A stretch of DNA of 61,277 bases. Source: an uncultured Flavobacteriales bacterium (lineage in GTDB: Bacteria > Bacteroidota > Bacteroidia > Flavobacteriales > Flavobacteriaceae). The position numbers and the translations under genes were made by a program. The stretch lies in NCBI GenBank assembly GCA_913058295.1, contig CAJXRD010000013.1, forward strand, positions 1-61,277, in the 5' to 3' direction. The notes beneath the pieces were generated by a model. The model was given only the letters and a program-made list of their open reading frames with translations, searched no databases and was not told the DNA's origin. Each line of letters opens with the position of its first letter. Position 1 is the first letter of the stretch. Below, piece by piece: positions 6,237-49,278 of this stretch.

Positions 6237-7205
6237 ATGAAACTACAAACCAACATACCTTTAACATCTCAAGAAAATCAGATAGATTATAACTCTAAGG
6301 TTTTATTGTTGGGTTCTTGTTTTGTAGAGAATATTGGCGAGAAATTAGAATATTATAAGTTTCAGAATCTTCAAAATCCATTTGGAATTCTTTTTCATAC
6401 TATAGCGATAGAAAAATTGGTTTCTAGAGCCATTCAAAATACTTTATTCAAAGAAGAAGATGTCTATTTTCATAATGAACTTTGGTATAGTTTCGAGGTG
6501 CATTCCTCTGTATTTGCTTCAGAAAAAGAATTGTTGTTGCAAATATTAAATGAGAAATTAGTAGAACTTAGATCCTATCTTTTATCAGCATCTCATATTA
6601 TAATAACTTATGGGACAGCTTGGGTATATCGTTTTATAGAATCGAATAGTATCGTAGCTAACTGTAATAAAATTCCACAGAAAAAGTTTACAAAAGAATT
6701 ACTATCGGTTGATGCGATAGCTGCTTCCATTAGAAATGCAATTTCACTTATTAAAGAGATCAGTCCTAAAGTTAACTTTATTACAACTATTTCTCCTGTA
6801 CGTCATCTAAAAGATGGTTTTGCAGAGAATAGTAGAAGTAAGGCACATTTAATTTCTGGATTACAAAGTGTTGTTGAGGAAGCCTCAAAAGAGGAAAAGT
6901 CACTGAACCAAGTCGAAATGTTTCCTTCTTATGAAATCATGATGGATGAATTAAGAGATTACCGTTTTTATAAAGAAGATATGATTCATCCTAATAATAC
7001 GGCGATTTCAATAATTTGGAATGCCTTTAATGAAGTTTGGATTGCTGATAAAACTAAGCAACAACAAAAAGAAATAGGGGCAATTCAGACAGGATTATCA
7101 CACAAACCTTTTCATCCAGAAAGCAAGGGGCATCAGAAGTTTTTAAAAGATTTAAATCTTAAAATTAAAAATATTCAGGGTCAAATATCTCACATAAGAT
7201 TCTAA
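6237..7205 (+). CDS. GSCFA domain-containing protein
   Basis: The 322-aa protein carries the family signature near its N-terminus: VLLLGSCFVENIGEKL (about residues 22-37), which is a GSCFA-type motif. Downstream are a conserved ITTISPVRHLKDG segment and a DMIHPNNTA motif. The family is thought to have an SGNH/GDSL-like hydrolase fold, but substrates are not established. There is no signal peptide, so it is probably cytoplasmic. It lies 26 bp after alaS on the same strand, an arrangement seen in other flavobacteria. I assign the family with confidence and the function not at all. Confidence 0.9.
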   Translation: MKLQTNIPLTSQENQIDYNSKVLLLGSCFVENIGEKLEYYKFQNLQNPFGILFHTIAIEKLVSRAIQNTLFKEEDVYFHNELWYSFEVHSSVFASEKELLLQILNEKLVELRSYLLSASHIIITYGTAWVYRFIESNSIVANCNKIPQKKFTKELLSVDAIAASIRNAISLIKEISPKVNFITTISPVRHLKDGFAENSRSKAHLISGLQSVVEEASKEEKSLNQVEMFPSYEIMMDELRDYRFYKEDMIHPNNTAISIIWNAFNEVWIADKTKQQQKEIGAIQTGLSHKPFHPESKGHQKFLKDLNLKIKNIQGQISHIRF

Positions 7206-7206
7206 T

Positions 7207-7255
7207 AATAGGGCAATTGCCCTATTGTACATAGTTGGGTATTAATGCATTTTTG
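7207..7255 (+). promoter_or_regulatory. CAATTG dyad operator A plus promoter of the lipoprotein gene
   Basis: Positions 7207-7226 are a perfect 20-bp palindrome AATAGGGCAATTGCCCTATT. Its right edge provides a -33-like TATTG (7223-7227), followed after exactly 20 bp by CATTTTTG (7248-7255), a 7/8 match to TAnnTTTG. The dyad centre lies about 31 bp upstream of the -7 box, so it overlaps the -33 region, as expected for a class II activator site. The lipoprotein ATG is 29 bp further. Two more copies of this layout occur at 7921 and 11736. Confidence 0.7.
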
Positions 7256-7284
7256 TAATGTATTAATTCTTAAAAACTCAACTG

Positions 7285-7833
7285 ATGAAAACAATTAAAC
7301 ACACAATTTACATTTCTTTACTATGCTTAGCTGTAATTTTTACAGGATGTAGTAGTGATGATGACAACAATAATGAAAATGATGATAATGGGGATGGAAA
7401 TAATGGTGGGTCAGAATTTTATACCGCTACTGTAGCTGGAGCTAGTTTTGAGGCTTCTACAGATCCTGCTTCTTTAATTGGCGCTACAGTTAGCACCAAT
7501 AATGGGATGACTATTGCTTCTGCTCAAGGAAGTACCAATAGCGGTGCATTTATTAATTTTTCAATTATTAATTATAATGGCCCTGGAACCTACACAACAG
7601 GAGACGATTTAACCAATCCAAATATGATAATGTATGGAACAGCATCGCCAGTAGCAGCATGGACTTCTAATGGAGTAACAGCATTAGTAGGTGGATTGCA
7701 AGCAGGAGAAATAATCATAAGCTCTGATGCAGATGGAGTACTAGAAGGAACTTTCTCTTTTGAAGGATATAATGGTGATGATCAAAGTACTAAAATGGTG
7801 ACAAGTGGAAGTTTTAAAGCTAATGTTAACTAA
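7285..7833 (+). CDS. Surface-type lipoprotein, Asp/Asn-rich N-terminus
   Basis: This 182-aa protein has a lipoprotein signal peptide ending in the lipobox FTGC, directly followed by SSDDDNNN. An acidic stretch just after the lipidated Cys is the known export signal that sends Bacteroidota lipoproteins to the cell surface. After a low-complexity Asp/Asn/Gly linker comes one beta-rich domain (about residues 48-182) similar to small flavobacterial lipoprotein families of unknown function (possibly DUF6252-like). It stands alone between its own dyad promoter and a strong terminator. The shared promoter dyad suggests that it is an output of the two-component system encoded downstream. Confidence 0.85.
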   Translation: MKTIKHTIYISLLCLAVIFTGCSSDDDNNNENDDNGDGNNGGSEFYTATVAGASFEASTDPASLIGATVSTNNGMTIASAQGSTNSGAFINFSIINYNGPGTYTTGDDLTNPNMIMYGTASPVAAWTSNGVTALVGGLQAGEIIISSDADGVLEGTFSFEGYNGDDQSTKMVTSGSFKANVN

Positions 7834-7882
7834 TCTTTTTTCAATTTATCAAGAAAATCTCAGAGTTGAGGTTTTTACCCAG

Positions 7883-7921
7883 AAACCGGGAGTTTACATT
7901 AAGTTTTCTCTCGGTTTTTTT
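7883..7921 (+). terminator. Rho-independent terminator after the lipoprotein gene
   Basis: AAACCGGGAG (7883-7892) pairs with CTCTCGGTTT (7908-7917), with one G-T wobble, and is followed by a T run. It separates the lipoprotein gene from the next transcription unit, whose operator starts immediately after it. Confidence 0.85.
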
Positions 7922-7969
7922 ATACGACAAATGCCCTATTGTAAATGTTTATATAATTCATTAAATTTA
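7921..7969 (+). promoter_or_regulatory. CAATTG dyad operator B plus promoter of the kinase operon
   Basis: ATACGACAAATGCCCTAT (7922-7939) is an imperfect copy of the 18-bp dyad. TATTG at 7937-7941 is followed after exactly 20 bp by TAAATTTA (7962-7969), a 7/8 match to TAnnTTTG. Operator, -33 and -7 elements sit at the same relative positions as in operators A and C. The ATG at 7992 is 22 bp downstream. Confidence 0.68.
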
Positions 7970-7991
7970 TTTACTTATTAAACCTTTGATT

Positions 7992-9662
7992 ATGAAAACA
8001 ATAAAGAATATTTCTTATGTGCTATTATTAGTTGGCACTTCAATAATTGCACAAGATTTAAAAATTACTAAAAGAGCTTCAGTAGAATTAACAAAGAGTT
8101 CTAAAAGCGGTAGTTATGGTGGAACTTTTATTGTTGGTGACGCTATTAAGGTAATATATGTATCCTCTACCAAGAAAGAAGGTGCGCAAGTAGAACAATA
8201 CGATTTAAGTTTTGCTGGCGAGGCATCTTCTGTAGAAGATAAGTTTATTGATAAAGATGAGGCTTCTGAAAAATTTCCTTGGTATATGCCAAAAGAAGAG
8301 GTGGAAAAAATAAGCTCTTCAGACGGAAAATGGTTACAAGCTGGACGTGCTTTTGGATCTGGCATGAAATTAAAACGAGGAAGAATGATTAAACACTATA
8401 CCTTAGGAGTCTATGTGGGCATGAGTTTTAAAGAAGAGGAATCTATTAAACCGAAAGCTGGGGATATTTGGAGAATTACCCCTGGCGGATTTAAAAGTCT
8501 AAGTGATATTGATGCTTTGTCAACCGAGTATGGTTTTTATAGAGATTTAGAGAAATATGCAAACCCTTTATTTATGCCGGCAGATGCGACTTTAATAGCT
8601 TCAGGAGTGATTACTGAAAAGGTTCGACTTACAAAAGATCAGGAGTTTGTTTCCAATAGAATAGCAGTTTTAGCTATGAATGGTATGAATTTCGATGATA
8701 TGGAATACGATATTTACCATTTACCTTATACTGCCTTAACGGTTGCTTCAGGTTTAGGACAAGACGATAATCTTTGTTCGCTTTTTGCGCCATTAAATGG
8801 TCCAACTACTATAAAGTCACTGAAGCACTTACTTTGGAAAGATAAAAAAGACCACTTTACGTTAATGCGATTTAACGATCAAAGAAAATTAGTAGACTCT
8901 GTTTCCTTTAAAAGTAAAATGTTATGGGGGGATTATCAAATTGTTAATGGTCAAGAGTCAACTTTTGTTTTGGGAAGGGGAAAAAAAGATTTTGATGGTT
9001 GGTATAGAAACTTTCAGTTAAAAAAAATAACAGCATTCCAAGTTGCAAAAGTAAAGGATGGAGAAATACAATACTTAAGTTTATTTACAGAAGAGGAACT
9101 AGTAAGTAAATTAGTTGGGGCAAAAGATGTAAAAACAAAATTTAAAATAACCGCTTTTTATAATAATTTTGAAGAAGTGATGGATCTACCAAACGGGGAT
9201 AGCATGGTGATTGGGCATAACTATCTAGAATCTTATGCATTACAAATATCACCAACAGGCGATTTAAAAGCATTTTATTTACTTCCTGTGGGAAAAGATG
9301 GTAAGCTTGGAATTCAAAATTATCAATATATGTTCAAAGGAGATGATTTGATATGGGTAATAAACTTACAGCCTTTAGAATTCTCAACAGATGCAAAAGT
9401 TTCCATAAAATCTTCCACAATTGGAAACGTTAAAACTACTAGAACTACGGTAACAAAACTAAACGAAGTTTTTTTAGTTAGCATGGTCTATAGAATTAAT
9501 ACCAATGAATATAAAATGAGTAATACAATCGCTTTAGATGGTAGTGAATTTTACCCTATGGGAAGTTTTCCAGCAATGTTTACAGACAATGCTATTTATT
9601 TTACTGGTCGTGAAAAAGGCCCGAAAGGAAAGGTGATTCATACGGTTCGTATCGATTTGTAA
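7992..9662 (+). CDS. Secreted or periplasmic protein of unknown function
   Basis: The protein has 556 aa if read from ATG 7992. A TTG codon six bases upstream is also in frame, but the ATG gives a clean signal peptide (MKTIKNISYVLLLVGTSIIAQ). No catalytic motif is recognised. The body is beta-rich with repeated hydrophobic/charged alternation and ends in a strand-like VIHTVRIDL. It has no lipobox and no T9SS sorting domain. It is the first gene of an apparent operon with a small membrane protein (4 bp away) and a TPR histidine kinase, so it may supply or bind the signal for that kinase. That role is inference. Confidence 0.8.
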   Translation: MKTIKNISYVLLLVGTSIIAQDLKITKRASVELTKSSKSGSYGGTFIVGDAIKVIYVSSTKKEGAQVEQYDLSFAGEASSVEDKFIDKDEASEKFPWYMPKEEVEKISSSDGKWLQAGRAFGSGMKLKRGRMIKHYTLGVYVGMSFKEEESIKPKAGDIWRITPGGFKSLSDIDALSTEYGFYRDLEKYANPLFMPADATLIASGVITEKVRLTKDQEFVSNRIAVLAMNGMNFDDMEYDIYHLPYTALTVASGLGQDDNLCSLFAPLNGPTTIKSLKHLLWKDKKDHFTLMRFNDQRKLVDSVSFKSKMLWGDYQIVNGQESTFVLGRGKKDFDGWYRNFQLKKITAFQVAKVKDGEIQYLSLFTEEELVSKLVGAKDVKTKFKITAFYNNFEEVMDLPNGDSMVIGHNYLESYALQISPTGDLKAFYLLPVGKDGKLGIQNYQYMFKGDDLIWVINLQPLEFSTDAKVSIKSSTIGNVKTTRTTVTKLNEVFLVSMVYRINTNEYKMSNTIALDGSEFYPMGSFPAMFTDNAIYFTGREKGPKGKVIHTVRIDL

Positions 9663-9666
9663 ATAT

Positions 9667-9915
9667 ATGGGTTCTATACAGCTCTTATTTCTATTGTTCT
9701 TTACTGTTGTTATAGCAGGAATTGTGTTGTTTTTTTATCATAAAAATCAAGGGATTAAAAAAGTACATAGGCAGAAATTGCAATGGATCCATCAGTCTAT
9801 TTCTATTCATGAAAACCAAATTAAAAGTAGAGAAGAAGGATTGACGAACTATAACTTTTTAAAGTTCAATTTAGAGGAATCCTTATGGGTACAAGCAGAT
9901 ATTAAAATACTTTAA
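9667..9915 (+). CDS. Small single-pass membrane protein
   Basis: This 82-aa protein has one N-terminal transmembrane helix (about residues 4-25) and a basic, probably cytoplasmic helical tail. It begins 4 bp after the stop of the secreted protein gene and ends 28 bp before the histidine kinase start, so it is very likely cotranscribed with both. Possible roles are an accessory or adaptor of the kinase, but no family is recognised. The size is close to the noise limit for ORFs; tight spacing and the hydrophobic profile support it. Confidence 0.65.
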   Translation: MGSIQLLFLLFFTVVIAGIVLFFYHKNQGIKKVHRQKLQWIHQSISIHENQIKSREEGLTNYNFLKFNLEESLWVQADIKIL

Positions 9916-9943
9916 TTACATTTATGTCGATAAGTTTAAAAAA

Positions 9944-11731
9944 ATGAAGGTCAAAAAAATAATTTCGATTTTATTTTTAGTATTTTTTTTTCGAATTGGA
10001 TTTTCCCAAGAAAAAAGATTAATTGACTCCATTAATGGGATTACAATTCAGAATGTTTCTATATCACAGGATTCCTTAGTTCTTCTTTTTCAGAAAAATA
10101 TAAAAGATTCAGAAACCTTAAATTATATTATTGGGGAAGCAGATGCTTTGGCAAAATTATCTTTGGTATATTATTATCAAGGAAATTATAAAGAAAATGT
10201 AAGCTTAATTTTAGAGGCAATTAATCTTTATGAAACTTTAGAACTATATTCAAAAGTCGCTAGTAATTATGGTGAATTAGGTTACCAAATGAAACGGCGA
10301 GATTTTCAAAAGGCTCATTTTTATATGCAAAAAGGGATAAAACTAGCAGAGCAATATAGGGATGAAGATGTTTTAAAGAATATCTATAATAATTATGGAG
10401 TTTTAAAAGAAATGAATAATGAGCTAGACAGTGCATTATATTATTATAAAAAAAGTTTAGTAATAAAAGAAAAACAAGGAGATGATTTTGGAATTCCTTA
10501 TAGCGAGAGTAATATTGGAGGGGTTTATTTTCTTAAAAAGGACTATAAGAGAGCGTTAAATCAATTTGAAAAATCTATAGATAAAAGAATAGAATTAAAC
10601 GATTCTATTGGTATTTCAGAAAACATCACACAAATTGGAGAGGTTTATGTAAATGAAGAAAAGTATTATAAAGCAATCGAAACATTTAAAAGATCTAATC
10701 GTATTGCTTCCGTAAAAGAATACAAATTTTTAATCCAGTATAACTATAAAAATATTGCCGAAGCTTTTAAAAAATTAAATATTTTAGATTCTGCTTTTTA
10801 CTATTACGAAGAGTATATTCTGATTAAGGATAATATTACCAGTTTAAATGTAGAAAAAGAAATTGCATCGCTTACCATTGAATTTGAGACAGAAAAAAAG
10901 GAAAAAGAGATCTTACAACAAAGAGCATTGCTTGCAGAAAAAGACTTGCAAGTAAGAAAAAAGAATTACATCATTTATGGGTCTCTTGGCTTGGCTATTA
11001 TTCTAGGTTTAATAGGCTATTTGGTATATAATCAACAAAAGCTAAAGAATCGACAACTCCAAAAGGAAAGCGAATTAAAAACCGCTTTGGCAAGAATTGA
11101 AACACAAAACAGATTGCAGGAACAACGTTTAAGAATCTCGAGAGATTTACATGACAATATTGGTTCGCAACTTACTTTTATTATTTCGAGTATCGATAAT
11201 CTAAAATATGGGTTTAAAGATATGAGCGAAAAACTTTCGGATAAACTTCAAGGTATTAGCTCTTTTACAACCCAAACTATTTATGAGCTTCGGGATACGA
11301 TTTGGGCGATGAATAAAAACAACATCACATTCGAAGACCTTCAATCTAGGATTACTAATTTTATCGATAATGCAAAAGTGGCTTCAGAAGAAACGACATT
11401 TTCATTTGTAATAAGAAAGGAGGTATCGCAAGAGCATACATTTACATCAGTACAAGGAATGAATATATATCGCATCATCCAAGAGGGGGTAAACAATGCG
11501 ATTAAATATGCAAAGGCTTCCCAGGTAGAAGTGAAGATTTCAGAAAATAAGGGCTTTCATATTAATATTTCTGATAATGGTATTGGTTTTGCTGAAGATC
11601 AAGTAGCGCTAGGAAACGGAATTAATAATATGAGAAAGCGTGCAAGAGATTTAAAAGGAAGTATCGATATTATTTCCGAAGTTAAAAAAGGAACGACCAT
11701 TAGTGTAATAATTCCTCAAAGTAATGTTTAA
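9944..11731 (+). CDS. TPR-containing sensor histidine kinase (NarL-type partner)
   Basis: The 595-aa protein starts with a signal peptide ending in GFSQ, followed by tetratricopeptide-like repeats (about 60-300; pairs such as NNYGVLKEMN, SNIGGVYFLK), a coiled coil (about 310-335) and one transmembrane helix (about 340-361). The cytoplasmic part has a HisKA_3 dimerisation helix with phospho-acceptor His403 in RDLHDNIGSQL and a HATPase domain with the N-box EGVNNAIKYAKA and DNGIGF. The periplasmic TPR domain presumably senses a protein or envelope signal. The response regulator gene follows after 80 bp behind its own dyad promoter. Confidence 0.95.
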   Translation: MKVKKIISILFLVFFFRIGFSQEKRLIDSINGITIQNVSISQDSLVLLFQKNIKDSETLNYIIGEADALAKLSLVYYYQGNYKENVSLILEAINLYETLELYSKVASNYGELGYQMKRRDFQKAHFYMQKGIKLAEQYRDEDVLKNIYNNYGVLKEMNNELDSALYYYKKSLVIKEKQGDDFGIPYSESNIGGVYFLKKDYKRALNQFEKSIDKRIELNDSIGISENITQIGEVYVNEEKYYKAIETFKRSNRIASVKEYKFLIQYNYKNIAEAFKKLNILDSAFYYYEEYILIKDNITSLNVEKEIASLTIEFETEKKEKEILQQRALLAEKDLQVRKKNYIIYGSLGLAIILGLIGYLVYNQQKLKNRQLQKESELKTALARIETQNRLQEQRLRISRDLHDNIGSQLTFIISSIDNLKYGFKDMSEKLSDKLQGISSFTTQTIYELRDTIWAMNKNNITFEDLQSRITNFIDNAKVASEETTFSFVIRKEVSQEHTFTSVQGMNIYRIIQEGVNNAIKYAKASQVEVKISENKGFHINISDNGIGFAEDQVALGNGINNMRKRARDLKGSIDIISEVKKGTTISVIIPQSNV

Positions 11732-11735
11732 TTTT

Positions 11736-11783
11736 ATACGTCAATTGCCGTATTTTATTTTAAAAGGGATAAAAGTATTTTAG
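11736..11783 (+). promoter_or_regulatory. CAATTG dyad operator C plus promoter of the response regulator gene
   Basis: ATACGTCAATTGCCGTAT (11736-11753) has perfect arms ATACG/CGTAT and core CAATTG. A degenerate -33 (TATTT, 11751-11755) is followed by exactly 20 bp and then TATTTTAG (11776-11783), a 7/8 match to TAnnTTTG. The response regulator ATG is at 11812. This fits autoregulation by the encoded LuxR-type protein, which is inference. Confidence 0.68.
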
Positions 11784-11811: not shown

Positions 11812-12462
11812 ATGAATATAAAAGTTGCCATAGTAGACGATAATTCTTTTTTAATAAGCGCGATAAAGGAAAAGCTTTCTTTTTTTGAGGATATTTTAAT
11901 AAAGCATACCTCTTTAAATGGAAGTGACTTATTAACCAAATTGGAGGACAATCACATTATTGATGTTATTTTAATGGATATAGAAATGCCGGTACTCAAT
12001 GGTATTGAAACTACTCAAATATTAAAGCAAAAATATCCACAGATCAAGATAATCATGTTAACGGCATTCGATAATGATGAGAATATTTTTAATGCGATTA
12101 AGGCTGGAGCTGATGGTTATTTGCTGAAAGAAATTAAACCAGAAGATTTACACAATGGGATTTTAGAAACCCTAAATGGTGGCGCTGCAATGAATCCTTC
12201 TATTGCTTTAAAAACCTTAAAATTACTTCGGAACCCAATCAATATTAGTAACCCTAAAGACCAAGAAATTATTTCGCTATCTAAAAGAGAAGTAGAGGTT
12301 TTGGAACAATTAAGCAAAGGTCTAAGTTATACTGCAATTGCCGAAAATTTATTTTTATCGCCTAGTACGGTAAGAAAACATATAGAGAACATCTACAAAA
12401 AACTGCAAGTGCACAGTAAAATAGAGGCTGTACAAAAAGCCAAAGATCACAATATCATCTAA
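11812..12462 (+). CDS. NarL/FixJ-type response regulator with LuxR HTH
   Basis: The 216-aa protein has a receiver domain (about 1-120) with acidic pair Asp9-Asp10, phospho-acceptor Asp56 in LMDIEMPVLNG, and Lys in GYLLKEIKP. After a linker the LuxR-type HTH begins at LSKREVEVLEQLSKGLSYTAIA and ends with STVRKHIENIYKKLQVHSK. All phosphorylation residues are intact, unlike the regulator at 35564. It follows the TPR histidine kinase and should be its partner. The dyad in front of it, in front of the kinase operon and in front of the lipoprotein is a good candidate for its binding site. Confidence 0.95.
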   Translation: MNIKVAIVDDNSFLISAIKEKLSFFEDILIKHTSLNGSDLLTKLEDNHIIDVILMDIEMPVLNGIETTQILKQKYPQIKIIMLTAFDNDENIFNAIKAGADGYLLKEIKPEDLHNGILETLNGGAAMNPSIALKTLKLLRNPINISNPKDQEIISLSKREVEVLEQLSKGLSYTAIAENLFLSPSTVRKHIENIYKKLQVHSKIEAVQKAKDHNII

Positions 12463-12576: not shown

Positions 12577-13209
12577 ATGAAATTATTTGCAACAATCCTC
12601 TTATTTTTCACTTTTAGTTTAACAGTCCAAGCGCAATGCACCGGTGACTGTAAAAACGGTTTAGGAACCTATAAATGGAGCGATGGCGATATGTATAAAG
12701 GCGAATGGGAAAACGGAAAGTTTCACGGTAAAGGAGAGTATTTTTATAGCAATGGCTCCAAGTTTGTGGGTGCTTATAAAAACGGTAAAAAACATGGTCA
12801 AGGTCTTTTTATAAAACCAAATGGCGATAAGTACGAAGGTACTTGGGAGCTAGGCAAACGAACTGTAAAAATAAATACCACTAAGAAAACTTGGCTTCTT
12901 GGAAACTGGGAAGGAAAAGGATATGAGGACAATGGAGAAACTTGGCAGGTTGTTTTAAATTATAAAAACACAAACGAAATTAAAATATCATACCCTAGTT
13001 TTCCTTGTAGTGGTACTTGGGTTTTCGATAAAGAAAATGAGACTCAAATATACTTTACTGAAAAAATTACCAAGGGGCAAAGCAAATGCAGACCTGGGAA
13101 TAGAATTATCATTGAAAAAGCCTATAAAGACCAAGACGATATTATGGGAGTTTATTTTTTTGAAGGAAAAAAACAAGTGGCTTCTGCCAATATTGTAAAA
13201 CAAAAATAG
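12577..13209 (+). CDS. MORN repeat protein with signal peptide
   Basis: This 210-aa protein has a signal peptide ending in VQAQ, then three MORN repeats (about 25-95; pattern YKGEWENGKFHGKGEYFY, FVGAYKNGKKHGQGLF, YEGTWELGKR). A separate C-terminal domain (about 105-210) has three Cys residues and a WLLGNWEGKGY opening. MORN repeats usually mediate protein or lipid contacts; no enzymatic domain is visible. The predicted location is the periplasm or outer membrane. A weak hairpin (GCCAT/ATGGC near 12481-12495) lies upstream, and a strong bidirectional terminator separates it from metK. Confidence 0.88.
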   Translation: MKLFATILLFFTFSLTVQAQCTGDCKNGLGTYKWSDGDMYKGEWENGKFHGKGEYFYSNGSKFVGAYKNGKKHGQGLFIKPNGDKYEGTWELGKRTVKINTTKKTWLLGNWEGKGYEDNGETWQVVLNYKNTNEIKISYPSFPCSGTWVFDKENETQIYFTEKITKGQSKCRPGNRIIIEKAYKDQDDIMGVYFFEGKKQVASANIVKQK

Positions 13210-14851: not shown

Positions 14852-15952
14852 ATGAAGCAAAGCTTTCTTATATGCTGTTTTTTAGTCTTAGGTTTTAGTG
14901 TTTTTTCACAAGAAGAAAATACGGAAACATTCACTATTGATGCTAATTATTTTTACGGAAGTATTCTATTACATAATAAAGATATTGCACATCTTATTAC
15001 GAAACATCCAGAAGGATTTATTGTTGGTTATAATAAAAAAACCTTTGGAGATTTACGTTGGCAACAAGAGTATAATTACCCAGATTGGGGGTTTTCTACC
15101 GTTTTTCATAATTCTAAAAACAATACTTTAGGCAATAATATAGGGGTATATGCACATTTAAATTTTTATTTTTTTAAAAGGAATTTACAATTTAGAGTTG
15201 CACAGGGAATAGCTTATAATAACAATCCTTTTGACTTAGAAACGAACATTAAAAACAATGCCTATGGGAGTCATTTATTAAGTTCGACCTATGTATTATT
15301 AAATTACTCTAAAGAAAATATTTTTAAAAATATAGGGGTTCAAGTGGGTTTAACTTTTATGCATTATTCCAATGCAAGTGTTACTGCTCCTAATACTAGT
15401 ACCAATACTTTAGCATTTAATGTTGGCCTTAATTATAAATTAAATAATGAAGCGCCCAGAAAGTTTATTCAGGATACTACCTATTCAAAAATTAAAGAGC
15501 CTATAAAATTTAATGTTGTTTTAAGAGGCGGCATCAATGAAGGGGATTATTTAAACTTAGGGCAACAGCCATTTTTAGTTGTTTCTGCATATGCGGATAA
15601 ACGCATAGGATATAAAAGCACCTTAACTTTTGGGGCAGATGTTTTCTTTTCTAAAGCTCTAGAAAAAGAAATCGAATATATTGCAGCGGCATTTCCAAGT
15701 TTTGGTGTGTCTGGGGACGAAGATTATAAACGTGTGGGCTTATTTGTAGGTCACGATTTGCATATTAATAAATTTGCTGTAGTGGCGCAATTGGGATATT
15801 ATGTTTATTATCCCTATGAATTTGAAGGGAGAATTTACGAGCGAATCGGCTTAAAATATTTTATAAATAAAAAGCTTTTTGCAGCGATAACCTTAAAAGC
15901 CCATGGGGCAAAAGCGGAAGCGGTAGAGTTTGGTATAGGCTATCGATTTTAA
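14852..15952 (+). CDS. Acyloxyacyl hydrolase / lipid A deacylase-like outer membrane protein, copy 1
   Basis: The 366-aa protein has a signal peptide ending in VFSQ and a beta-barrel pattern of alternating hydrophobic strands with aromatic girdles and a terminal Phe. The motif FMHYSNAS (His171, Ser173) matches the PagL-type catalytic His-x-Ser-Asn of outer membrane lipid A 3-O-deacylases. It is longer than classical PagL, as usual for the Bacteroidota acyloxyacyl hydrolase family. It is followed 6 bp later by a head-GIN lipoprotein; the same pair is repeated immediately downstream. Probable role: trimming of lipid A acyl chains at the outer membrane. The exact substrate is not established. 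Confidence 0.85.
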   Translation: MKQSFLICCFLVLGFSVFSQEENTETFTIDANYFYGSILLHNKDIAHLITKHPEGFIVGYNKKTFGDLRWQQEYNYPDWGFSTVFHNSKNNTLGNNIGVYAHLNFYFFKRNLQFRVAQGIAYNNNPFDLETNIKNNAYGSHLLSSTYVLLNYSKENIFKNIGVQVGLTFMHYSNASVTAPNTSTNTLAFNVGLNYKLNNEAPRKFIQDTTYSKIKEPIKFNVVLRGGINEGDYLNLGQQPFLVVSAYADKRIGYKSTLTFGADVFFSKALEKEIEYIAAAFPSFGVSGDEDYKRVGLFVGHDLHINKFAVVAQLGYYVYYPYEFEGRIYERIGLKYFINKKLFAAITLKAHGAKAEAVEFGIGYRF

Positions 15953-15958
15953 AAAAAA

Positions 15959-16714
15959 ATGAAAAAAATAATATACATAACAATTCTGTTTTTGGTACTT
16001 GCTTCTTGCGAAATAGATAATGTATCCGATTGTTTTCAATCTACGGGGTCGATTATTTTAACTGAAATAGAAGTAGAATCTTTTACAAAATTAAGATTTG
16101 AGAATGATATTTCCGTAGTTCTAAAACAAGACTCAATTCAAAAAGTGGTAATAGAAACTGGAGAAAACTTACTGAGTAATATTGAGGTGAAAGTGGAAGA
16201 CGGTGTGTTAATTATAAAGGATAATCATGGCTGTAGTCTTAGCCGAGAATATGAAGTTACAAAAGCTTATATAAGTGTTCCTAATCTAACTGAAATAAGA
16301 AATAGTTCTCCAAGGGATATTAGAAGTGATGGGCTTCTTAATTTTCCAAGTTTGACATTAGTAAGTAATACAACAGGTAATATTGAGGGTTCTAATAAGA
16401 GTGGTGACTTTATACTTCAAGTAGCTTGCGAAAATTTTAGTGTCTCGGCAAATGGTCAATCCATATTTTATATAACTGGGGAAACTATAAATGCAAACCT
16501 TGTGTTTTCAGATGAATGGCCGCGATTTGAAGGGGAGAACTTTAAAATTGAAACCTTATCCATCTCCCAGCGTAGTGCTACTTATATGAAGATTTTTCCA
16601 GAAAATAAAGTGTCAGGACAAATTAGAGGAACAGGAGATGTAATTTTAGTAAACCGCCCAGATATTATAGAAGTAGAAGAATTTTTCACAGGTAGACTTA
16701 TAATCGAAGATTAG
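15959..16714 (+). CDS. Head-GIN domain lipoprotein (DUF2807 type), copy 1
   Basis: The 251-aa protein has a lipoprotein signal peptide with the lipobox ASC (Cys17). The mature part begins with a conserved SDCF motif and continues as a right-handed beta-helix-like head-GIN domain: SFTKLRFENDISVVLKQ, VVIETGENLL, VEDGVLIIKDNHGC, and a late GQIRGTGDVILVNRP. Members of this family are putative adhesin or envelope proteins of unknown function. It is paired with the upstream hydrolase gene (6 bp gap) and has a paralogue at 17853. The paralogues share signal peptide style, SDCF motif and the end EVEEFF/LFxGxLIxED. Confidence 0.85.
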   Translation: MKKIIYITILFLVLASCEIDNVSDCFQSTGSIILTEIEVESFTKLRFENDISVVLKQDSIQKVVIETGENLLSNIEVKVEDGVLIIKDNHGCSLSREYEVTKAYISVPNLTEIRNSSPRDIRSDGLLNFPSLTLVSNTTGNIEGSNKSGDFILQVACENFSVSANGQSIFYITGETINANLVFSDEWPRFEGENFKIETLSISQRSATYMKIFPENKVSGQIRGTGDVILVNRPDIIEVEEFFTGRLIIED

Positions 16715-16742
16715 TTTATATTTACGGGGTTTAAAAATTAAA

Positions 16743-17843
16743 ATGAGGCAGCCCTTACTTATCCTTTTTTCTATTTTTTTTTGTTTCTCCCTTTTTTCAC
16801 AAGAGGAGAAAAAACATTTTTCTTTAGAAGCAGATTATTTCTACGGAAACATACACGAACATAGTCCAGACATATCCCATTTAATTACAGGACACCCCAG
16901 CGGTATCTTTTTAGGCTTTAACAAAAACACATTTGGTTCTAAAGAATGGGAGCGTCAATATGGCTCTCCAGATTGGGGGTTTTCATTTATCTATCAAGAC
17001 ATGAAAGAGCCCGCTTTAGGAGAAAATTATGGTTTGTATGGGCATTATAATTTTTATCTATTAAAAAGAAATCTATTGTTTTCGGTTGGTACAGGTTTGT
17101 CTTATAATACAAATCCTTATGATTCTGAAAGTAATTTTGAAGATAATGCCTATGGAACTTCCTTATTAAGTACCACTTTTTTAAGGTTGAATTATGTAAA
17201 AAATAATATATGGAAAGGATTGGGATTTCATGCAGGATTTATGTTTGTTCATTACTCTAATGGAAATATTAAGGCTCCAAATACCAGCACCAATACTGTA
17301 GCGCTTAATGCAGGTTTAAATTATCAGCTAGATTATAAAAACCTTCCAGAATACAATAAGGAAAGGGATGGTTTAGATTATTCAGAGCGGGTTAAATATA
17401 ATTTTGTTTTTAGATATGGATGGAATGAAAGTGATGTGATTGGACTAGGTCAACATCCATTTTATGTAGTTTCAGCTTTTGCAGATAAACGATTAAATTA
17501 TAAAAGCACTGTACAGCTAGGTGCAGATGTTTTTTTTACTGAATTTTTAAAAGACTTAATTAAATATAGGTCTATTGCTTATCCAGAAGATGGGCTTACA
17601 GGAGATGAAGATTATAGAAGAATTGGAATTTTTGCTGGTCATGAATTACGATTTAATAAAGGAGCTTTTGTTTCGCAATTGGGCTATTATTTATATTGGC
17701 CTTATGAGTTTGAAAAAAGGGTTTATTTGCGGGTAGGTATAAAAAGGTATTTTTATAAAGATAAAATTTTTGCTGCCATTACTTTAAAATCACATTATGC
17801 ACAAGCGGAAGGAATTGAGTTTGGTATAGGAGTAAGAATATAA
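16743..17843 (+). CDS. Acyloxyacyl hydrolase / lipid A deacylase-like outer membrane protein, copy 2
   Basis: The 366-aa protein has exactly the same length as copy 1 and is colinear with it. It has a signal peptide ending in LFSQ, the catalytic-type motif FVHYSNGN (His170, Ser172), the shared segment KAPNTSTNTVALNAGLNY and the shared C-terminal EFGIG. Divergence is moderate, so the duplication is not recent. The active-site motif is intact in both copies, so neither looks like a pseudogene. It starts 28 bp after copy 1 of the GIN lipoprotein and is followed by its own GIN partner. Confidence 0.85.
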   Translation: MRQPLLILFSIFFCFSLFSQEEKKHFSLEADYFYGNIHEHSPDISHLITGHPSGIFLGFNKNTFGSKEWERQYGSPDWGFSFIYQDMKEPALGENYGLYGHYNFYLLKRNLLFSVGTGLSYNTNPYDSESNFEDNAYGTSLLSTTFLRLNYVKNNIWKGLGFHAGFMFVHYSNGNIKAPNTSTNTVALNAGLNYQLDYKNLPEYNKERDGLDYSERVKYNFVFRYGWNESDVIGLGQHPFYVVSAFADKRLNYKSTVQLGADVFFTEFLKDLIKYRSIAYPEDGLTGDEDYRRIGIFAGHELRFNKGAFVSQLGYYLYWPYEFEKRVYLRVGIKRYFYKDKIFAAITLKSHYAQAEGIEFGIGVRI

Positions 17844-17852
17844 TTATTTAAA

Positions 17853-18605
17853 ATGAAAAAAATAATTTACATAGCAATTGCTTTACTATTTATAGCTTGT
17901 GATTCAGAGAATGGATCCGATTGTTTTAAAAAAGAAGGAGCTATTGTTCAGCTAGATTTTGACTTAGCATCTTTTACTGAAATTGTTGTTTTTGAAGGGG
18001 TACAACTTTTTATAGAAGAAGGGCCTGAGCAAAAAGTGACTTTGGAATCTGGAGAAAATCTAATAGATGACGTTGAAGTAAAAGTTGAAGGAGCTTTGTT
18101 ATCTATAATAGATGATAATACCTGCAATTTTATACGAGATTACAATATCACTAAGGTATATGTTACTTCGCCTAATATTACTAAAATAAGAAATAGCTCA
18201 AGTATAGAAATTGCTAGTATAGGAGTTTTAAATTACCCTGAGCTAACCTTATATTCAGAAAATCACGAAAACGAAGAATACTATCATAATAACGGGGATT
18301 TTAATCTTAATTTAAATGTACAAAAACTAACAATCGCTTCTAATGGCTTTTCTACTTTTCGTATAAATGGTAATGCAGATATAGCAGATTTTGGCTTATA
18401 CTCTGGAAATACTCGAATTTTAGCAGAAAATTTAATCGTGAAAAATTTATATCTATATCATAGAAGTACCAATAAAATGTTGGTAAATCCTATAGAATCT
18501 ATCCATGGGGAAATATTTGGTATTGGTGATGTAATTGCTAAAAACAGGCCTCCAATAGTTGAAGTTGAAGAACTTTTTATGGGAAAGCTTATTTTTGAGG
18601 ATTAG
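17853..18605 (+). CDS. Head-GIN domain lipoprotein (DUF2807 type), copy 2
   Basis: The 250-aa protein is a paralogue of the gene at 15959. It has a lipobox IAC (Cys16), an early SDCF motif, VTLESGENLIDDVEVKVEG, and the C-terminal IHGEIFGIGDVIAKNRPP. It lies 9 bp after the second hydrolase copy. Its last 17 bases overlap the 3' end of gldA on the other strand, so the two transcripts are convergent and there is no room for a conventional terminator. Function unknown; probably an envelope partner of the hydrolase. Confidence 0.84.
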   Translation: MKKIIYIAIALLFIACDSENGSDCFKKEGAIVQLDFDLASFTEIVVFEGVQLFIEEGPEQKVTLESGENLIDDVEVKVEGALLSIIDDNTCNFIRDYNITKVYVTSPNITKIRNSSSIEIASIGVLNYPELTLYSENHENEEYYHNNGDFNLNLNVQKLTIASNGFSTFRINGNADIADFGLYSGNTRILAENLIVKNLYLYHRSTNKMLVNPIESIHGEIFGIGDVIAKNRPPIVEVEELFMGKLIFED

Positions 18606-48087: not shown

Positions 48088-49278
48088 ATGAATAAATTAT
48101 ATCAACATATAAAAGGAGACAGAGCTATTTGGGCTGTGGTTACCTTGTTGGCATTATTTTCATTCTTACCAGTATATAGTTCTAGTAGTAATTTGGCTTA
48201 TTTATATGGCGACGGAAATACATTTAAATTTTTATTAAAACATTTCGCGCATTTAATATTAGGGTTTGCAATTTTATACGGAATTCATAAAGTGCCATAT
48301 CATTATTTTAAAGGCTTATCAATTATTGGTGTTCCGATAGTTATTTTATTGCTTATTGTAACTATGAGTCAGGGGACTACTATCGATGGCGCTAATGCTA
48401 GTAGGTGGATTCGGGTTCCTTTTGTGGGGGTAACATTTCAAACTTCCACACTTGCCTCAGTAGTATTATTAACGTATATAGCTCGTTATCTGTCTAGAGT
48501 TAAAGACAAGACGATTAATTTTAAAGAAACAATTTTGCCTCTCTGGTTGCCAGTATTTTTAATATTGGCACTTATATTACCCGCCAACTTTTCCACAACA
48601 GCTATCCTATTTACTATGGTATCTGTTTTGTTATTTGTTGGCGGTTATCCAAAAAAATATTTGGGAATTATCTTTTTAGCAGGAGCTTTTATGCTGACCT
48701 TTTTTATTGTTACTGCAAAAGCCTTTCCAGATGTTTTTCCTAATCGAGTAGATACTTGGATTAGTAGAATAGATAACTTTATAGATGATGAAGAAACTCA
48801 GGCAGATTATCAAATAGAAAAAGCTAAAATAGCTATTGCTTCTGGAGGCCCTTTGGGCTTAGGTCCTGGAAAAAGTATTCAAAAAAACTTTTTGCCACAA
48901 TCCTCATCCGATTTTATTTATGCAATTATCGTTGAGGAATTTGGTTTAATAGGAGCATTATTTTTAATGTTCCTATATCTATTATTGCTATTTAGGTTTG
49001 TAATTGTTGCACATAAAGCGAATACTGTTTTTGGAAAATTATTAGTTGTAGGTGTTGGTTTGCCAATTGTGTTTTTGGCATTGATCAATATGGCAGTTGC
49101 CGTAGAATTGTTTCCCGTTACAGGACAAACATTGCCTTTAATTAGTAGTGGAGGGTCTTCCATTTGGATGACATGTTTAGCGATTGGTATGGTGTTGAGC
49201 GTTAGTGCACAAAGAGAGATAGTAGTAGATGAAGATAAAGAAGAAAACCCATTAGATATTTTAAGTGAAGCCATATAA
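48088..49278 (+). CDS. ftsW: Peptidoglycan glycosyltransferase FtsW
   Basis: FtsW is the SEDS glycan polymerase of the divisome. The 396-aa polytopic protein has about ten transmembrane helices, [59 protein letters not shown] and the C-terminal [14 protein letters not shown]. The FQTST segment replaces the FQPSE motif of other phyla. It overlaps the murG start by 14 bp. Confidence 0.96.

Follow-up and report, generated by a model that had tools for sequence, protein, structure and literature searches.

Primary-sigma promoters of Bacteroidota carry TAnnTTTG at -7 and TTTG at -33, the NarL heptamer is TACYYMT, and the sensor kinase FimS has tetratricopeptide repeats (TPRs). To our knowledge, few operators of two-component systems in this phylum have been defined to the base, and FimS/FimR is the nearest characterised Bacteroidota analogue of the system considered here: a TPR kinase and a NarL-type response regulator (RR), with an 18-bp dyad at three promoters around their genes, in a 61,277-bp stretch of DNA (the window) from an uncultured Flavobacteriales bacterium. 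The window makes up contig C13 in full, one of the 95 contigs of a 3.07-Mb genome (assembly 97.6% complete), and the named loci nearest to it are from Flavobacteriaceae. NarL sites are inverted 7-bp elements 2 bp apart, and at Escherichia coli yeaR one such 7-2-7 site, placed just upstream of -35, is enough for activation (PMC7419079); in Porphyromonas gingivalis, the sensor kinase FimS is paired with FimR, which activates mfa1, a gene for a surface protein, by binding directly to its promoter (PMC1974823), a paper in whose accessible text a term search turned up no palindrome, inverted repeat or binding site; and in Flavobacterium johnsoniae the -33 motif was not identified (PMC7366714).

Compared with FimS/FimR, the window system likewise pairs a sensor kinase with a regulator, and its kinase matches the FimS model over 71-555 (E 1.6e-12), but with 46.5 bits against an equivalog cut-off of 600, and no fimbrial genes are annotated among its neighbours. 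With NarL systems it shares a receiver-plus-GerE regulator of the NarL/FixJ type (PF00072, E 1.8e-24; PF00196, E 2.4e-19), inverted 7-2-7 half-sites and a yeaR-like single site, presumably by -35. It differs in its half-site (TACGGCA or TACGnCA, which does not fit the TACYYMT of NarL proper), its Bacteroidota -7 box, its TPR kinase and its exported-protein neighbours. The best full-length solved relatives of the RR are VraR, ChrA and NarL; against the NCBIfam equivalog of NarL it scores 125.1 bits, below the cut-off of 250.

In our view, the dyad marks an operator and a regulon that are real and conserved, belong to a NarL-type regulator and, judged by position, resemble class II. It is very probable that the dyad is the operator of the RR at 11812-12462, and that this RR autoregulates and activates the kinase operon and variable exported proteins. 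The operator and regulon are new, of an already known kind (NarL-type RR operator); among the titles and abstract starts listed in searches of open-licence PMC papers, none describes either of them, which is no proof of absence in print. With some 200 sites in 80 genome loci behind its definition, and tied to one regulator, the dyad suggests how promoters could work where a general -33 element is lacking. It also allows the regulon of a TPR-kinase system that is still uncharacterised to be predicted in genomes of Flavobacteriaceae, and it indicates that the output of the system is exported proteins, of which some have type IX secretion system (T9SS) sorting domains.

Dyads, boxes and genes of the locus

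The features that concern us are the following, all dyads and boxes resting on sequence reading and a matrix scan, and the three dyads also on a genome pattern search.

7208..7225, + strand: proposed operator dyad A, ATAGGGCAATTGCCCTAT (sequence reading, matrix scan, genome pattern search)
7248..7255, + strand: -7 box of promoter A, CATTTTTG, starting 22 bp past dyad A
7285..7833, + strand: lipoprotein-like exported DUF6252 protein (Pfam E 3.4e-7)
7922..7939, + strand: proposed operator dyad B, ATACGACAAATGCCCTAT
7962..7969, + strand: -7 box of promoter B, TAAATTTA
7992..9662, + strand: exported 556-aa protein, variable cargo slot (signal-like N-terminus by eye; no Pfam match)
9667..9915, + strand: 82-aa protein, N-terminus with one hydrophobic segment; recurs in relatives' loci
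9944..11731, + strand: sensor kinase with TPR, HisKA_3 and HATPase_c domain matches
11736..11753, + strand: proposed operator dyad C, ATACGTCAATTGCCGTAT
11776..11783, + strand: -7 box of promoter C, TATTTTAG
11812..12462, + strand: NarL/LuxR-type RR (Response_reg and GerE), proposed binder of the dyad

The preliminary description of this DNA had placed three dyads before three promoters, and the dyads do lie where it put them, each followed by a -7 box that starts exactly 22 bp after the 18-mer; start codons follow dyads A, B and C by 59, 52 and 58 bp, respectively. The genes that it assigned to them also hold: a DUF6252 lipoprotein-like protein, an exported protein with the TPR kinase, and the RR itself. 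Its outer arms, ATACG and CGTAT, fit less closely: dyad A is indeed a perfect palindrome (20 bp when 7207-7226 is counted), but both of its arms deviate at the fourth base, and in B the right arm does so. Dyads A and C lie close behind stop codons, starting 3 and 5 bp, respectively, past the final base of these. The 82-aa protein has no Pfam or NCBIfam match and is possibly a kinase accessory; in relatives, its gene often has a dyad of its own (30 sites).

A matrix learned from other genomes and scanned over the 61-kb window recovered only A, B and C and a weaker match at 49088; the latter sits inside an ORF (48088-49278), has no good box, and was treated as chance. In the window's own genome, dyad plus box with at most two mismatches gave 12 matches versus 4 for the reversed pattern, a count that covers both strands and may include near-palindromes twice: neither A nor B is mismatched, C carries a single mismatch (on both strands), so does, on the minus strand, one other place (C39:22029-22075), and seven matches have two. 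A dyad common without promoter spacing, which would have counted against an operator, was not seen. A profile of dyad plus box (R1) matched this genome four times at E≤0.02, each time at one of the three sites (C was hit on both strands), and since no other place is matched, the regulon looks local in this 97.6% complete assembly. The dyad at the other one-mismatch place (C39:22058-22075; ATATGACATTTGTCATAT, score 14.0; L002) lies between divergent ORFs that by eye look like hemH and hemA, and is possibly another regulator's site.

Conservation, spacing and putative targets

At least 551 stretches encode a relative of the RR, of which the best 80, several of them congeneric, were kept as loci; they include Altibacter, Aequorivita, Ulvibacter, Gilvibacter, Gelidibacter, Mesonia, Psychroserpens, Bizionia, Flavobacterium and Dokdonia. 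In 58/80 loci versus 61/1600 shuffles, the 200 bp upstream of the RR contain an 18-mer that scores ≥12 of 18, and in 54/80 an RR-upstream dyad passes the position filter. All 80 loci have at least one dyad with box somewhere, as against 3/80 for the reversed control, so the conservation upstream of orthologues that had been proposed as support is found. In 1.10 Mb of loci, 199 dyads score ≥15, versus 1 for the reversed and 3 for the Markov-1 control (one draw each). The matrix was trained on 37 non-redundant RR-upstream sites only, and sites before other genes are therefore independent of its training, although the dyad consensus was chosen after inspection of the loci.

Base counts over the 18-mer are mirror-symmetric and describe inverted 7-bp half-sites around a 2-bp centre. 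The half-site is mostly TACGGCA or TACGnCA, giving a 16-bp core of TACGGCA-N2-TGCCGTA and variants, flanked by A and T; bases 1-3, 5, 7 and 8 and their mirror bases are well kept, while 9-10, and also 6 and 13, vary.

The constant dyad-to-box distance seen at the three window promoters extends to the relatives. Among 89 non-redundant dyads, chosen without regard to the box, NAnnTTT stands at exactly +22 in 66 and at +21 to +23 in 75, and at any other offset from 0 to 59 it never follows more than 7; the dyad axis is 31-32 bp upstream of the box. At least four of the five fixed bases of TAnnTTT occur at +20 to +23 behind 36 of 37 non-redundant RR-upstream sites. The dyad holds one fixed position, presumably by -35/-33, as a class II operator does. 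In contrast, the TATTG/TATTT element that had been named as a shared feature did not survive: at the right edge of the dyad, TATTG occurs in 27/89 and TATTT in 21/89, and with these counts the element is frequent, not general. Nor does the right edge carry the -33 TTTG element of Bacteroidota sigma-A, although column 20 is G in 50/89 dyads and may be a remnant of that motif. These promoters share with Bacteroidota primary-sigma promoters the -7-type box, and differ from them in having the dyad in the -33 region at a fixed distance and in first and last box bases that vary by target class.

Promoter classes were compared over 218 sites; at 190 of these, an ORF of ≥60 aa begins 25-120 bp downstream, and in 166/190 the start lies 45-64 bp from the dyad. 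With the box taken as the best of four offsets, DUF6252 promoters have C as its first base in 47/52 and G as its last in 50/52, promoters of the 82-aa gene T in 29/30 and A in 27/30, and RR promoters T in 46/54 and A in 36/54; other outputs (MORN and unlabelled, n=51) begin with C in 28, T in 11, G in 11 and A in 1, and end in G in 43/51. A -7 box shared by all three promoters, as first described, is therefore correct insofar as such a box follows the dyads, but RR and DUF6252 promoters carry different ones, and the classes may reflect tuned promoter strength.

Within the loci, the dyad precedes genes for DUF6252, PQQ_2-like (about 620 aa, exported), MORN, 82-aa/kinase, RR and other exported proteins. 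By a crude signal-sequence rule, 103/136 non-RR targets look exported, versus 315/859 ORFs of ≥150 aa, a background that includes spurious ORFs. A search of 198 other genomes at E≤1e-10 found no relative of the 556-aa protein of the window, and one was seen only in a near relative (L035); the operator thus stays while the cargo changes.

Outside the RR locus, 27 stretches around R1 matches (L157-L183; the best-scoring matches and some weak ones) were considered, and ten were dropped before counting: three belonging to the tandem-array system described below (L158, L167, L177), one on a 6.9-kb contig that is maybe the same RR locus (L176), one weak and with no ORF (L178), and L179-L183, four of which have no matrix hit and one of which (L180) has no box or ORF, L179-L181 being from genomes in which the RR was not found. 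Of the 17 distant sites kept, 13 (L157, L159, L161, L163-L166, L168-L171, L173, L175) are followed after 49-65 bp by the start of an ORF whose N-terminus looks signal-like by eye, among them three with T9SS type A sorting domains (L171, L173, L175) and one with a papain-like peptidase domain (L169); L166 is only about 11 kb from its RR. The proposed regulon thus keeps its three local sites and apparently has no more in the window genome, but in relatives it reaches further.

Proposed mechanism and its rivals

From these arrangements, we propose that an RR dimer, presumably activated by the TPR kinase (9944-11731), would bind the dyad as a NarL-type 7-2-7 site. The dyad would occupy the -33 position, with its axis 31-32 bp ahead of the base at which the -7 box begins (this puts the axis at roughly -42, an absolute position that depends on where transcription would start), and the bound dimer would recruit RNA polymerase. 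In this way, the RR would activate the gene that encodes it, together with the kinase operon and exported proteins that differ between species. We infer binding, its dependence on phosphorylation, activation as its direction, and the transcription starts.

The view that the adjacent RR binds the dyad, put forward in the preliminary description, is favoured by the spread of the dyad over many genera, its place before kinase, RR and exported-protein genes, its co-occurrence with the RR and, weakly, an operator variant that goes with the recognition helix of the RR. Among 100 genomes of the family, 29 encode the RR at E≤1e-40, and in the other 71 it was not found. R1 matches at E≤1e-3 in 21/29 of the former versus 0/71 of the latter, and at E≤0.02 in 27/29 versus 6/71; with permissive filters at E≤0.02, the counts are 27/29 versus 2/29 (the latter picked from the 71). 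The recognition helix reads SPxT in 53/80 loci and in the window, and SxGT in 27/80. Half-site base 4 is C throughout in 26/27 SxGT rows versus 2/54 SPxT rows, and base 7 is C in 344/358 half-sites of SPxT loci versus 45/98 of SxGT loci. In a receiver-domain tree, three changes account for the helix types, and the well-supported branches yield one independent pair, which weakly suggests an association at the level of one clade.

Several observations weigh against this reading. Two NarL sites are required at ogt, where a single improved site at -44.5 is not nitrate-coupled (PMC7419079). Directly before the RR, 26/80 loci have no dyad passing the filter, although in several of these a dyad sits before an upstream small ORF or operon. 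Four of the 17 distant sites do not fit: at L160 and L172 the nearest listed ORF is 229 and 237 bp away, and L162 and L174 precede xerD-like ORFs. Two of the 29 RR-encoding genomes have no R1 match at E≤0.02, and six genomes with no RR found do match (G069, G095, G062, G006, G046, G093; of these G062, G095, G046 and G093 are outside the 29 picked for the permissive filters). The stretch from G062 (L180) has a good dyad (score 24.1) with no box or nearby ORF, in an assembly that is 84% complete, in 340 contigs, and may have missed the RR. The RR-encoding side of the comparison (21/29, 27/29) is partly circular, because the training loci apparently include some of the same genomes (e.g. L112/G097). 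A sign test of helix/operator co-change is not significant, with too few independent pairs. Finally, a site over -33 could also repress.

That the RR binds the dyad but mainly represses, with negative autoregulation by covering the -33 region, is the best of the alternatives, and we hold it improbable. Autorepression is common among regulators, and the operator abuts or overlaps the -33 position; however, exact locking at 22 bp (66/89) is expected for contact with polymerase and is not needed for occlusion, and DUF6252 promoters, having a non-consensus first box base (C in 47/52) and no general -33 element, look weak without help. Quite unlikely is binding by a transcription factor other than the RR. 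The case for the RR as binder is one of correlation, a MerR-like ORF (by eye) lies nearby at 2168-2497 in the window, and weak profile matches occur in 6/71 genomes with no RR found, but strong profile matches track the RR (21/29 versus 0/71), the dyad variant goes with its recognition helix, and 7-2-7 geometry suits a NarL-type dimer. A MerR-like arrangement, with the dyad within the spacer, was rejected, the dyad being upstream of the spacer. That the palindromes are intrinsic terminators or repeats with no regulatory role, a reading prompted by perfect or near-perfect A and C just past stop codons (3 and 5 bp), is scarcely credible and was rejected on the fixed dyad-box spacing, with ORF starts at 45-64 bp in 166/190 sites, and on columns 19-24, where T in only 30 to 53 of 89 means that no T-run is required after the dyad.

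Paralogous regulator, tandem arrays and neighbouring genes

A paralogous NarL-type RR, 26-31% identical to that of the window, lies near tandem arrays in L190, L203, L206 and L210 (four loci inspected). The array unit comprises a dyad such as ATACGTAGAAGTGCGTAT, 22 bp, a TAnnTTTA-like box, a leader like CAGTGCTATTAATTAGTTCTTAGGGAGAATTA and a terminator-like hairpin. Arrays occur in L158 (G028), L167 (G029) and L177 (G005), and for example at L190, L191, L196, L201, L208, L210 and L211; a genome has at most 8 pattern matches, which are often spaced by about 140-150 bp. With at most two mismatches, the pattern is found in 109/397 family genomes (control columns zero); the window genome has no match. 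A consensus fold of 57 non-redundant units has only one hairpin, the terminator-like one, and does not support a second that had been guessed; Rfam gave no match at gathering score on six array loci. The arrays are a candidate regulator-controlled family of tandem small RNAs (sRNAs). An odhB-like ORF (named by eye) stands beside L158, L167 and L177, where ORFs of ~33 codons with one hydrophobic segment also follow array units (by eye). ORFs of 37 codons, again with one hydrophobic segment, follow a dyad and box at L091 7647, L105 7650 and L106 7650, and all of these small ORFs are possible regulated tiny membrane proteins.

We give about an even chance to a common promoter grammar for NarL-type RRs in Flavobacteriaceae, in which an RR-specific dyad replaces the -33 element 22 bp from a class-tuned -7 box (CAnnTTTG at DUF6252; TAnnTTTA at kinase/RR; mixed first base and mostly final G at other outputs), the RR described here serving variable exported proteins and the paralogue tandem sRNA genes.

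As for neighbouring genes in the window, two flank the locus:

6237-7205: GSCFA protein, upstream of dyad A
12577-13209: MORN-repeat protein, after the RR gene

Further on, a PagL-like gene (14852-15952) and a DUF2807 gene (15959-16714) are followed by ORFs 16743-17843 and 17853-18605, of lengths nearly equal to those of the preceding pair. In the near relative L035, both gene pairs match PagL/DUF2807, so that 14852-18605 in the window is probably a tandem duplication.

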